From the NCBI RefSeq assembly GCF_002177135.1, contig NZ_MWPH01000001.1, positions 930,001-994,000 of the forward strand: DNA of 64,000 nt. Direction: 5' to 3'. The notes beneath the pieces are model-generated. The model did not search any database. It was not told the origin of the DNA and saw only the letters and a list, made by a program, of their open reading frames with translations. This document shows positions 32,165 through 36,298 of this stretch, in pieces; within the stretch, counting starts at the first letter, position 1; each line of letters begins with the position of its first letter. This DNA is from Natronolimnobius baerhuensis (GTDB lineage: Archaea; Halobacteriota; Halobacteria; Halobacteriales; Natrialbaceae). Both the position numbers and the translations under genes were made by a program.

Positions 32165-32380
32165 ATGGAAGAGGAAGTTCCGGTGCGACGGCGCGACCTG
32201 ATCGCGCTGGTTGTTCTCTCGCTCGGCGGTGGTATCGCACTCGCATCGTGGATGCTGTCCCCACAGCTGTCACCGCAGTTTTTCAATGCAACCTTGGTTG
32301 CGACGATGTTGCTCGCGTTTTTCCTGTTTATCCCAGTGATGGGCGCACGCCTTTTTCTCGAGGACAGAAACAAGGAGTGA
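32165..32380 (+). CDS. Small membrane protein with two TM helices
   Basis: A 71-residue protein: MEEEVPVRRRDLIALVVLSL starts the first helix (IALVVLSLGGGIALASWML), then a short external loop and a second helix (ATLVATMLLAFFLFIPVMGA) ending with RLFLEDRNKE. The basic RRR before helix 1 and the charged tail put both ends in the cytoplasm. The ATG at 32165 lies 26 bases after a TATA box, which supports the start. No family is recognised. It converges on the acidic four-gene cluster, with seven bases between stops. Confidence 0.7.
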   Translation: MEEEVPVRRRDLIALVVLSLGGGIALASWMLSPQLSPQFFNATLVATMLLAFFLFIPVMGARLFLEDRNKE

Positions 32381-32386
32381 CCGCCA

Positions 32387-33280
32387 CTATCGGTCCGGCA
32401 TCGTCGAAAACCGTGCCGTCCCTTTCATATCCGCACGCTCCGATGGTGGCGGTGCCATCGTCGAATGTCGAGTGCCGTCCCCGCCAGCGCTGCTTCCCTG
32501 CTCACCACCGAGGTCCGCCTCGAGGTCTGGCTCGAGCAGGCCATCGTCTTCTTCATCACTGTCAGACGCGTGCTCCTCGTCATCAGCCTCGTCAGCGTCA
32601 CTCTCGTCTGTATCGGAGAGTCCCGACTGGACTGCCTCGAGTCCCTCCTGGAGGGACCCAATGTCCTCGCTGAACGCGCTCAGTGAGGACTCCATCGACG
32701 AGCGAAGTTGCTCCGTCAACTCGGATGTGGTATCGGACTCGTCCGTCTCCTCGCGTTCGCTGTCATCCGTCTCCTTGTGTTCGGTTTTGTCAATCTCGCT
32801 GTCATCACTCTCCTCGTGTTCACCGTCGTCGGCCTCGCTGTCGTCAGTCTCGCTTTCGCTCACGTCACTGTCGGCCGTCTCATCCTCACCGGCGTCGTAG
32901 TCATCTGTGCCATTTCCGATCCCGTCACGAAGTGTCTCGAGTGCCCCATCGAGGTCAGCAGCGTCGTGGTCGGCGAATTTCGCGAGTCGAAGCAGTTGCT
33001 GGAGTCTGGCAACAGCCGCTGACTCTCCCTTTGCAATCGCCTCGGGAATCGACGACGCGGTGCTCCCGTCGGGAAGCGTATCCAACTCGAGTGCTTCGAG
33101 GAGGTCTTCCGGATCGGCCGACTCGAGGAGATCACTGGCATCGTCGGCTGCCTCGAGAAGCGCGGCCGACTCCGTCTCTGTTTCCTCACCTGACTGCTCG
33201 CCGGACGGAAGCAGCGACTCGCGCTCGCCTGATGCACGATCCAGTACGTCCGTAATCTCCTCGTGAAGGTCCTCGCTCAT
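32387..33280 (-). CDS. Highly acidic protein, fourth gene of the acidic cluster
   Basis: A 297-residue protein, last of four same-strand acidic genes. The N-terminal 125 residues are helical and less extreme (DLHEEITDVLDRASGER; LLEAADDASDLLESADPEDLLEALELD; AVARLQQLLRLAKFADHDAADLDGALETL). A Glu/Asp/Ser/Thr-rich stretch follows (about 130-185), then a helix TSELTEQLRSSMESSLSAFSEDIGSLQEGLEAVQSG and another acidic tail. A His/Met-containing end closes it. No signal peptide, Cys or membrane helix. Composition is far more acidic than the neighbouring housekeeping genes. Function unknown; it should act with the three upstream products. Confidence 0.75.
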   Translation of the reverse strand: MSEDLHEEITDVLDRASGERESLLPSGEQSGEETETESAALLEAADDASDLLESADPEDLLEALELDTLPDGSTASSIPEAIAKGESAAVARLQQLLRLAKFADHDAADLDGALETLRDGIGNGTDDYDAGEDETADSDVSESETDDSEADDGEHEESDDSEIDKTEHKETDDSEREETDESDTTSELTEQLRSSMESSLSAFSEDIGSLQEGLEAVQSGLSDTDESDADEADDEEHASDSDEEDDGLLEPDLEADLGGEQGSSAGGDGTRHSTMAPPPSERADMKGTARFSTMPDR

Positions 33281-33386
33281 AGCTGTCTCTTCGGCATCCT
33301 CGCGGGTTAGTTATGTGCCGGGGTGCGCAGGGACGGCCCCGCCCGATCTGGACTCTCTCCCTCGAGACACGAGGCGCGACGCTTGA

Positions 33387-34259
33387 CTACTCGGCTTCTG
33401 ACTCCGCTTTGTCGTTATCGTCGCTTTCGGTTTCGTCACTGCTATCGCGTTGTGTCTCCTGTTCATCGTCAGACTCCGACTCCGTCTCGCCGTCCGAAAC
33501 TGTCTCGATAATCTCGTCGGTCATTTCATCGCGGCTCAGATTCGCCTTCACACCGACGTCTTTTGCAACTGACTGGAGATCCTCATAGGACATCAGCCCA
33601 AGGAAATCCTCGAGCGTGTCTCGGCGCAGCCCCTCGAGATCGTCTGCGTCCGCCCCCGAGTCGTCACCGGCCGCTTCGTCGCCCTCGTCTGTTGTCTTCC
33701 CGTCATCTGCTGTGTCTTCGTCAGCCGACTCCTCTGTCTCGTCCGTTTCGTCATCGGCCGACTCATCCTTGGCCTCATCGTCCGTCTCGGCAGATTCGTC
33801 GGATTCGTCGGACTCGCCGGACTCACCAATTTCGAGTTCTTGATCGAGGGCCTCCTCGAGAAGGCCATCGTCGTCATCCTCATCACCAGTCGCGGCCGCT
33901 GCCAGCGAAGCGATAGAGTCGCCGACGTTGCTGTCAGTGACTGCGTTACTGACGCCCGCCTGAACTGCGCGTCCGACATCGGACCGTAACGACTCAGGGA
34001 CGTCCACAGAGTCCTCGTCCGACTCATCGCTGTCATCGCTTGCAGCGACTCGCTCGGTCATCGTCTCGTGAATCTCGCGGCCAATCGACGCACCGAGTTC
34101 CCGACCGACCTGTTCGCCGAGTTGCCGGCCAACTGCCGCGCCGAGGTCACCACCGTCGAGTTCGTCCTCGAGACTGCCATCGCCAAGCAGGTTCGAAACG
34201 CTGAGTTGGTTGCTGACCTCCTCGGTGATGATTTCTTTCAGTCCCTGTGTCTCACTCAT
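33387..34259 (-). CDS. Acidic protein with hydrophobic-Gly repeat and SAP-like C-terminal motif (third gene)
   Basis: A 290-residue protein. Residues about 39-62 are six tandem four-residue units of the form hydrophobic-Gly-x-x (LGAA, VGRQ, LGEQ, VGRE, LGAS, IGRE), a glycine zipper with charged faces. A linker and an acidic Ser/Asp/Glu stretch (about 125-200) follow. Near 205-245 there is a compact pair of helices, LEDFLGLMSYEDLQSVAKDVG then LSRDEMTDEIIETV, which resembles SAP/HeH DNA-binding motifs. The end is acidic. ATG at 34259 is supported by GAGGTG eight bases upstream. The gene is 47 codon-free bases downstream of the second cluster gene (34316). Confidence 0.75.
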   Translation of the reverse strand: MSETQGLKEIITEEVSNQLSVSNLLGDGSLEDELDGGDLGAAVGRQLGEQVGRELGASIGREIHETMTERVAASDDSDESDEDSVDVPESLRSDVGRAVQAGVSNAVTDSNVGDSIASLAAAATGDEDDDDGLLEEALDQELEIGESGESDESDESAETDDEAKDESADDETDETEESADEDTADDGKTTDEGDEAAGDDSGADADDLEGLRRDTLEDFLGLMSYEDLQSVAKDVGVKANLSRDEMTDEIIETVSDGETESESDDEQETQRDSSDETESDDNDKAESEAE

Positions 34260-34315
34260 CGTGTCCACCTCGAGGGACAGGCACTCGAGTTACAGTGATG
34301 CAGGCGCTCATAGAG

Positions 34316-34939
34316 TTACTCCTCCTCAGAATCATCCGTCTCATTGTCGGCGTCTGTGGATTCACTCGCTTCCGCCTCGTTTTCGTCGTTCGTTCCTTCG
34401 TCAGCCTCTGACTCGTCTGTCTCCGCGTCCGTCTCATCGTCCGCAGCCGACTCATCGTCTGCACTGCCTTCGTCGTCCGTCCCTTCCCCATCCGACTCGT
34501 CCGCATCGTCCGCGCTGTCTTTCTCACTCTCATCTTCCTCGCCTTCGTCATCCTCGTCTTCAGTTGCGTCCTCCTCGTCTCCGTCTTCGTCGTCTTCGCT
34601 GTCTTCGCTCTCTTCTTCCTCAGAATCGTCGGCCTCGCTCTCATCTCCCTCTTCTTCACCGTCCTCGAGTTCAGGGTCACCAGCACCCAGCAACTCCTCG
34701 AGTGCAACCTCGCCGACGGTCCGACCCAGTTTCTCGCCGATTTTTCGGCCGAGGACAGCACCAATCAGCCCGCCAAGCGCTTCGCCGAGTGGCTGCTCGT
34801 CGTTGATCTCGTCTTCCCACTCGGTTCCCTCGACGAGGTCGGCGATGTCGATATTTTCGGTAATCGCTTCGTAGTCGATTCGATCCGCCAGTGCGTCTAT
34901 ACTCGAGTCGTCAGAACTCGTTGCAGTATCGTCACTCAT
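34316..34939 (-). CDS. Acidic protein with seven-unit hydrophobic-Gly repeat (second gene)
   Basis: A 207-residue protein. After an acidic head comes YEAITENIDIADLVEGTEW, then seven perfect four-residue units (residues 51-78: LGEA, LGGL, IGAV, LGRK, IGEK, LGRT, VGEV) and the helix ALEELLGAG. From about residue 88 to the end the chain is almost only Glu, Asp, Ser, Ala and Thr (low complexity). The unit pattern is shared with the next gene in the cluster, so the two probably arose from a common module. Its ATG overlaps the stop of the first gene (four bases), indicating coupling. No known family. Confidence 0.78.
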   Translation of the reverse strand: MSDDTATSSDDSSIDALADRIDYEAITENIDIADLVEGTEWEDEINDEQPLGEALGGLIGAVLGRKIGEKLGRTVGEVALEELLGAGDPELEDGEEEGDESEADDSEEEESEDSEDDEDGDEEDATEDEDDEGEEDESEKDSADDADESDGEGTDDEGSADDESAADDETDAETDESEADEGTNDENEAEASESTDADNETDDSEEE

Positions 34940-36162
34940 GATTGGGCCTCCGCCTGCTCAGCGTCAGATTGGTCGCTCGACTGGTCACCAGCCTGTTTCT
35001 CTGCCTGTTCGATCAACGCCCGTATACTTTCGCGGACGATTGTTGCGATGAGATCCTCGATTGGCAAGTTGGGAATCAACCCAATGAGTTTCTCTTTCAC
35101 CCAACTTGCAGCCGATGCGATACCAGATCGAACTCGCCCGATTACGCCCGCAATTCGGCCGCGTTCGTCGGATTCTGAGTCCTCCTCGCTCTCCGGTTCG
35201 GCTGTCTCGTCTGTGCTCTCTTCTGACTCTGTCTCCGCCTCGTCCTCCTCGTCAGCCTCCTCGGCCTCCGCTTCACCCTCATCGCCACCACCGAGAAGCT
35301 CAGCCGGCTTACTCGCAAGCGACCGAAGGAACTCGAGTGGCTTGCTCACCAACGATTTGAGGAACTTAGCTGGTTTGCTCACCAACGATTTGAGGAACTT
35401 AGCTGGTTTGCTCACCAACGATTTGAGAAGTTTGGCTGGCTTGCTTGCGAGTGCGCCTAGTTTGCTTTTCGCTCCCTCGAACAGCGACTGAAGCACCTCT
35501 TTAGGTTTTCCGAGCAGTGATTTTACCTTCTTCAGAAGGGCACTCGGCCCATCGAGCAGCCCTGAAACTGCCGAGAGCAAGTTCCCAAGCAGATTGTTCT
35601 CACCCGGGCGCGCAGACACATCCAGTGAAACCGGATTGAGGTTCACCTCGAGTCCGAGCAAATCGAGGTACAGCCCATCGAGGTCGAGATGCAAGACGCC
35701 ACTCGCGTCATCGTCGTCGTAGACGTCCTCTGCACCCTGGTCGTGGCCACCTTCCGTAGCATCTGCTTCGTCCTCTTCGTCTTCCTCGTCATCGTCGTTC
35801 CCTTCGCTCTCGGATTCCGACTCCGACTCTGGTTCGGATTCCGACTCTTGCTCTGACTCGTTGCTCTCATCGCCACTGTCTTCCGAGTCGCTCTCACCCG
35901 AGGACTCATCCGTGTCCGCCGCTGAATCCGACTCATCGGCTTCGGGTTCGTCATCACTCTCCGATGCCTCCGCGTCGCTCTCGGCTGTCTCCGCTTCCGT
36001 CTCGGAGTCATCACCTGTTTCTTCCGCCGTTGCCTGACCACCATCGGTCAGCACTCGGCGTACTGATTCTTCCATCCCGTCTTGGTCATGAGAAACACTC
36101 GAGGAACCACCGCCCACTCTTGATTCCAGAGTGTCCTCAGAGCCGTGATCTTCTCGGCTCAT
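34936..36162 (-). CDS. Acidic protein with conserved Leu/Gly/Asn motif and Lys-rich 11-residue repeats (first gene)
   Basis: A 408-residue protein, first of the four-gene cluster. Residues 45-153 are a Glu/Ser/Asp low-complexity region. Residues 156-205 form a hydrophobic motif, GVLHLDLDGLYLDLLGLEVN then LDVSARPGENNLLGNLL, that I recall in otherwise unrelated bacterial and haloarchaeal hypotheticals. Residues 207-293 are eight 11-residue units with consensus SKPAKFLKSLV, the only strongly basic part. A second acidic block follows (294-333), then amphipathic helices to 388. No signal peptide. ATG at 36162 is used, but a TATA-like GGATATAACG at 36165-36174 would start transcription within the gene, so M30 is a possible true start. 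Confidence 0.8.
   Translation of the reverse strand: MSREDHGSEDTLESRVGGGSSSVSHDQDGMEESVRRVLTDGGQATAEETGDDSETEAETAESDAEASESDDEPEADESDSAADTDESSGESDSEDSGDESNESEQESESEPESESESESEGNDDDEEDEEDEADATEGGHDQGAEDVYDDDDASGVLHLDLDGLYLDLLGLEVNLNPVSLDVSARPGENNLLGNLLSAVSGLLDGPSALLKKVKSLLGKPKEVLQSLFEGAKSKLGALASKPAKLLKSLVSKPAKFLKSLVSKPAKFLKSLVSKPLEFLRSLASKPAELLGGGDEGEAEAEEADEEDEAETESEESTDETAEPESEEDSESDERGRIAGVIGRVRSGIASAASWVKEKLIGLIPNLPIEDLIATIVRESIRALIEQAEKQAGDQSSDQSDAEQAEAQS
35311..35442. repeat. 33-bp tandem repeat inside the first acidic-cluster gene
   Basis: Four consecutive 33-base units coding 11-residue repeats. The units at 35344-35376 and 35377-35409 are identical; the flanking ones (35311-35343, 35410-35442) diverge at several positions. 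Identity at DNA level points to recent duplication or ongoing copy-number change. Confidence 0.85.
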
Positions 36163-36298
36163 TCGTTATATCCGGACAAACAGACCAGCGGCAGCGTTGT
36201 GGTGATTTGCCTTGCGTGTGCGTTCGTACATCTATCTGCAACTGCCTAGACTGGCGACCTAGACCCACGCTGCGCGGAGGTGGCGAAACACGTCTCTG
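36163..36298. other. Upstream region of the acidic cluster
   Basis: This 136-base gap between cobB and the first acidic gene holds the presumed cluster promoter. A TATA-like GGATATAACG (minus strand) lies only about ten bases before the ATG at 36162; a second, weaker A/T stretch lies near 36205. No coding frame is credible here. Confidence 0.35.

Follow-up and report, generated by a model that had tools for sequence, protein, structure and literature searches.

Architecture of a four-gene acidic operon

We analysed a window of 64,000 nucleotides from the haloarchaeon Natronolimnobius baerhuensis (family Natrialbaceae; positions 930,001 to 994,000 of contig NZ_MWPH01000001.1); all coordinates below refer to this whole stretch. 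The subject of this work is a run of four consecutive minus-strand genes and its relation to the gas-vesicle (gvp) genes. The open reading frames (ORFs), here called P1 (34936..36162, 408 residues), P2 (34316..34939, 207 residues), P3 (33387..34259, 290 residues) and P4 (32387..33280, 297 residues), encode very acidic proteins: aspartate and glutamate together make up 27.7% of P1, 46.9% of P2, 34.8% of P3 and 32.7% of P4, with a median of 19.4% for the 62 genes of the window, where the three highest values belong to P2, P3 and P4. A four-base overlap (34936-34939) joins P1 and P2, as it does in 59 of the 82 intact relatives.

An initial annotation, made from the sequence alone, described these genes as a probable operon of acidic, modular proteins with no described function. 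Its gene boundaries, lengths, acidity and four-base overlap were all confirmed; the operon is supported by conserved order and strand (82 intact P1-P2-P3-P4 runs), by the overlap and by a single conserved element upstream of P1. The ordered, non-acidic modules that it pointed out (Lys-rich 11-mers in P1, glycine zippers in P2 and P3, a SAP-like end in P3) proved real. Many genera have kept them, in contrast to the variable acidic stretches, which argues that we are not looking at chance composition. The ordered parts of P4, a helical domain at the N-terminus and an STMP motif at the C-terminus, had been missed. No signal peptide was seen in the four proteins, as judged from the sequence without a predictor. 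Scans of P1, P2 and P3 against Pfam and NCBIfam gave no match above cut-off, so that the absence of a described function holds for these three; it does not hold for P4, which falls in the GvpI family. Matches of the four proteins to DNA_pol_phi, SepX, PorH and CsdA in the same scans were below threshold or confined to low complexity and were rejected as compositional.

Relatives of P1 were found in 47 of 145 genomes of the class Halobacteria and in 108 of 125 genomes of the window's family. Most of them have the N-terminal peptide motif RRVLTDGGQ (36034..36060). The core module (SGVLHLDLDGLYLDLLGLEVNLNPVSLDVSARPGENNLLGNLLSAVSGLLDG; 35548..35703) is 52 residues long, with 16 invariant columns in the alignment, and is modelled by AlphaFold2 as short strands followed by a helix. 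The Lys-rich amphipathic repeats that come next in the protein (35287..35517, of the type LVSKPAKFLKS) have identities of 0.48 at a lag of 11 residues and 0.40 at a lag of 22, against a background of ∼0.1; their hydrophobicity period is 3.66, that is 11/3, and they are helical in the model. These repeats are present in most P1 proteins of Natrialbaceae and absent elsewhere. A C-terminal pair of hydrophobic helices (34945..35160; predicted local distance difference test, pLDDT, ∼70-92) is conserved across families. The P1 model is weak overall (pLDDT 64, predicted template modelling score 0.27), and a fold search with this weak model gave no match. The P1 core was also seen in small, signal-peptide-bearing proteins of Salipaludibacillus (L225:5638-6225 and L229:5569-6159) that have no Pfam or NCBIfam name; the core is an undescribed mobile module.

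P2 consists of a glycine-zipper domain and an acidic tail. The zipper (34712..34786) is conserved and has a sub-threshold match to PF05433, Glycine zipper 2TM (E = 0.019; 15.3 bits with a curated cut-off of 24.2 bits). The zipper domains of P2 and P3 are homologous (profile comparison, E = 1.9e-12). In P3 the zipper helix (34038..34154; residues 36-74, pLDDT 73-86) has invariant glycines G44, G48, G52 and G56 and is followed by an acidic linker and a C-terminal SAP/Rho-N-like domain (33480..33647). This end of P3 is predicted as a three-helix domain with pLDDT of 92-95 in most 10-residue blocks, and throughout residues 211-250. Its best Foldseek matches, the Rho N-terminus and a SAP domain, were non-significant (E >6), and its score against PF18953 was 11.8 bits, below the curated cut-off of 26.3 bits. 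P2 and P3 have the GxxxG-type zippers of families such as PF05433 and PF13488; they differ from these in scores below the cut-offs, in the fusion to acidic tails, in the SAP-like domain of P3 and in having no visible signal peptide or lipobox. Likewise, the P3 C-terminus resembles the helix-extension-helix domains of the SAP and Rho-N kinds as a small, confidently modelled helical unit with weak fold and Pfam matches; unlike them it passes no curated cut-off, and its nucleic-acid binding is only putative. Among the papers searched, none joins gas vesicles with a glycine zipper.

Upstream of P1 lies a conserved 32-bp element with the consensus GTCGCAYACGCAAGGCCAACCACCACAACGCT (36193..36224, minus strand), which ends 30 bp before the ATG start codon and precedes P1 in at least 56 loci; no obvious TATA box is present at the usual distance. 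In a scan of ∼160 loci with a position weight matrix (threshold 12; maximum in shuffled sequence 6.9) every strong match preceded P1, including one before a mis-called P1. We looked for the element in gvpA and gvpF promoters and did not find it there; a vague CTTGC/GTCGCA resemblance seen by eye is not claimed. Just beyond P4, on the plus strand, a 71-residue ORF (32165-32380) encodes a membrane-protein-like product and adjoins the operon at several of the family's loci.

Association with gas-vesicle genes

Genomes were searched with the ordered parts of the proteins as queries, the acidic stretches being left out, and a genome was considered gvp-positive if it had a match to PF00741 (gvpA-type genes). 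In the class the P1 core was found in 47 genomes and the P4 N-terminal domain in 43, largely the same ones, with the two mostly ∼2-3 kb apart. All 47 genomes with P1 were among the 57 gvp-positive ones; 10 genomes had gvp only, and none of the 88 gvp-free genomes had P1 (Fisher p = 1.3e-28). In the window's family 108 genomes had both, four had gvp only, 13 had neither and none had P1 only (p = 1.6e-14); in both sets the counts are not phylogeny-corrected, and species that share ancestry are not independent. Some gvp-free species belong to genera in which other species carry both gvp and P1, which indicates joint loss within genera. In one gvp-less genome (G091) broken remnants of P1 and P3 remain at the syntenic site.

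Among the four family genomes with gvp only, two (G161 and G190) have kept P2-P3-P4. In a third, G156, the cluster is of the Halobacterium type (gvpA-gvpC-gvpN-gvpO), with GvpC instead of the operon; in the fourth, G145, neither the operon nor GvpC was detected. In G190 the operon is decaying (L252:4805-7198): P1 is shortened to 88 residues and has no core, and the C-terminus of P4 is frameshifted. A viral origin of the operon was considered and rejected, the viral contigs having no confirmed relatives.

In the window's family the operon is usually distant from the gvp genes, and in the window genome the gvp cluster is on another contig. At ∼16 loci in several other lineages and families, operon genes stand beside or inside gvp clusters. 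All four genes adjoin gvp genes in Natronosalvus hydrolyticus (L216, gvpA-gvpO-P1-P2-P3-P4), in two Halohasta species (L233, L234) and in genome G067 (L065). At five loci (L071, L072, L192, L195, L205) gvpH and gvpI are separated by P1 and a zipper gene, and at five more (L062, L063, L066, L227, L228) P1/P2 follow gvpO. The gvp clusters fetched from the family have the genes O-N-A and F-G-H-I-J-K-L-M, some being without N or H; no gvpC, gvpD or gvpE was seen in them, G156 excepted. Seven P1-positive gvp clusters have no gvpN (L062, L063, L066, L071, L072, L146, L155). In Halobacterium salinarum gvpN is needed to enlarge the vesicles.

In the genomes sampled, the operon and GvpC exclude each other. 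With the H. salinarum protein as query, GvpC was detected in 0 of 47 P1-positive genomes of the class and in eight of the 10 genomes that have gvp and no P1 (p = 2.7e-8); this single query missed the G156 copy, which a GvpC profile found in the cluster with a modest score, so that divergent GvpC may be missed. No gene occupies the gvpC slot in the fetched gvp clusters of P1-positive genomes. P1 resembles GvpC in being acidic, repeat-bearing and confined to gvp-positive genomes of the sample, where the two never occur together; it differs in having 11-residue helical repeats (32-40 residues in GvpC), no C-terminal zinc finger and no sequence homology. P1 was tried as a GvpC homologue and rejected (hhalign E = 0.3); any replacement would therefore be by analogy. 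In the Halobacterium-type cluster of G156 (L256:10684-11934) GvpI is short and basic, and a GvpC-like protein has a SAP-looking end where a zinc finger is usual; this end was not matched by the P3 SAP profile, and no more than a likeness is noted.

Clusters without gvpC, gvpD and gvpE have been described before, in Natrialba magadii, Natrinema pellirubrum, Halopiger, Haladaptatus and Natronobacterium, species that a review reports as vesicle-negative for reasons not known (PMC4390858); published clusters without gvpC/DE are also found in PMC3403918.

Kinship of P4 with GvpI

The N-terminal domain of P4 (32909..33169) is common to GvpI: in profile comparison by hhalign E was 1.2e-13 and the score 85.7, whereas none of 20 column-shuffled controls scored above 13. 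The C-terminal motif RHSTMAPPPSERADMKGTARFSTMPDR (32390..32470) is also common to GvpI (profile E = 5e-8), its counterpart in H. salinarum GvpI being KNPAAHSTMPPQ...HSTVPKTPKYS. The C-terminus of H. salinarum GvpI (HSTMPPQ...HSTVP...YSDV...RLYGQRL) in turn matches the long proteins encoded in the GvpI slot. P4 thus has the N-terminal helical domain of the long GvpI-slot proteins and the STMP...STVP motif of GvpI, including that of H. salinarum; it has neither the basic N-terminal end found in H. salinarum GvpI nor the terminal YGxRF block. Unlike the strongly basic GvpI of H. salinarum, P4 and the long GvpI proteins are acidic. An N-terminal extension of the GvpI homologue of Natrialba and Haloterrigena was already noted (PMC3403918).

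In the tree P4 proteins form a single group (support 94, by a quick method) separate from GvpI, and genomes of several families carry both. Since the slot between gvpH and gvpJ is occupied by a different GvpI gene and P4 is placed after P3, in another operon, we classified P4 as a paralogue and not as GvpI itself; it represents an anciently diverged relative of GvpI. Three genes of the GvpI family are found in the window genome: the GvpI-slot gene on contig 4, P4 itself, and a further relative on contig 1. The latter (L101:9923-10732, ∼69.9-70.7 kb of contig C1 of the window genome G000) encodes 269 residues with the GvpI C-terminal motif and stands alone beside a pdxS-like gene. Loss of GvpI leads to very long vesicles, and GvpI binds GvpH, GvpF and GvpL (PMC7688916).

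Proposed role and alternatives

Given the co-inheritance with gvp, the linkage to gvp clusters, the kinship of P4 with GvpI and the exclusion of GvpC, we are almost certain that the P1-P4 operon belongs to the gas-vesicle system as an accessory module. What it does there is a matter of lower confidence. The best overall explanation, which we think probable, is that the operon is the accessory module of a haloarchaeal gas-vesicle system without GvpC, in which P1, P2 and P3 do work like that of GvpC and P4 acts in the manner of GvpI. From the mutual exclusion with GvpC alone we infer that the module would attach to the shell and stabilise it. For a coat mechanism of the GvpC type in P1-P3 we would put the chances as about even. 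In such a mechanism these proteins would bind to the outer face of the GvpA shell as it grows, or to its nucleation complex, stiffening it or controlling its shape as GvpC does, with other folds. P1 would act through the hydrophobic core and, where they are present (most Natrialbaceae), through Lys-rich amphipathic helices with the 11/3 period; P2 and P3 could oligomerise through their glycine zippers, and the acidic tails may form a salt-stable repelling brush. P4 would work with the accessory Gvp complex, limiting vesicle length like GvpI. One could speculate that in Natrialbaceae the Lys-rich repeats of P1 supply the basic partner that H. salinarum has in its GvpI.

Several observations weigh against this reading, in addition to the dependence among the counted genomes. 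Since the 11-mer repeats are confined to Natrialbaceae, some of whose members also lack them, they cannot be the universal function; the P1 core, occurring as it does in secreted Salipaludibacillus proteins, is not by itself specific to gas vesicles. The upstream element was found before no gvp gene in the ∼160 loci scanned. P1 is not a homologue of GvpC, and several of the species concerned are reported to show no vesicles (PMC4390858). Three genomes (G069, G124 and G145) have gvp and neither P1 nor detected GvpC, which indicates that neither is strictly required.

GvpD and GvpE track GvpC as well: strong GvpD matches in the class come only from genomes of the GvpC type, and gvpE, where checked, was present only in such clusters. 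The module might therefore replace these regulators rather than GvpC, the SAP/Rho-N-like domain of P3 binding nucleic acid and the four proteins controlling expression or translation of gvp. Such a role would suit the confident prediction of that domain and the many members encoded apart from the structural genes; still, no nucleic-acid domain can be recognised in P1 or P2, P4 is related to an assembly protein, several lineages have P1 and the zipper gene inside the accessory operon, and Haloquadratum walsbyi and Halorubrum vacuolatum are reported to keep gvpC without gvpDE (PMC4390858), so that the module is not a requirement for losing D/E. We consider this replacement unlikely, and no more credible is a function in positioning, clustering or partitioning of vesicles, with the brushes spacing them and the SAP-like domain tethering them to the nucleoid or a scaffold. 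The bipartite structure of P3 and the acidic low-complexity stretches, kept in kind and not in sequence, would fit such a function, but the operon has no ParA/MinD-like partner and the exclusion of GvpC would need a separate reason.

It is also conceivable, though very improbable, that the product of clusters without GvpC and of P1-P4 is a related protein shell rather than a gas vesicle for buoyancy. The vesicle-negative reports for several species with clusters lacking gvpC/DE (PMC4390858) and the loss of gvpN in part of the P1-positive clusters speak for it; against it, GvpA and the accessory set F-M are intact and close to classical, and vesicles may be induced under other conditions. Least credible, to the point of being nearly negligible, is an assembly on a membrane, lipid granule or nucleoid surface with no tie to gas vesicles. 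The initial annotation had suggested such a surface, with the modules tethered to acidic brushes, and the 11/3 amphipathic helices of P1 do resemble apolipoprotein repeats (weak profile match to the Protein Data Bank entry 2lem, E = 0.015); this proposal gives no reason why the operon genes should so strictly co-occur with gvp genes, be linked to them and be lost with them. The arrangement it described is plausible in form, the surface being most likely that of the gas vesicle. Homologues are not scattered singly, keeping instead the combination of modules, and P4 is the only one of the four to match a family of known role.

Returning to the accessory-module explanation, that species of this kind have no gvpC, gvpD or gvpE and that several are reported as vesicle-negative was already known; new is a candidate for the missing part, the P1-P4 operon. 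The operon, usually unlinked in the window's family, never found without gvp genes and excluding GvpC, suggests that the inventory of gas-vesicle genes is incomplete. Its products are also new shell-binding candidates for the engineering of gas vesicles as ultrasound reporters and antigen carriers, which is usually done through GvpC. We suggest, tentatively and at somewhat less than even odds, that haloarchaea have two alternative coats, GvpC or the unrelated P1-P4 set with its 11/3 helices, zippers and acidic brushes, the latter mostly encoded off-cluster in Natrialbaceae; the operon has its own conserved promoter element and might turn out to be the overlooked switch to vesicle formation in species that have long counted as vesicle-negative. 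The operon is a candidate answer to what substitutes for GvpC, and the question of the vesicle-negative species becomes testable by adding or deleting four genes.

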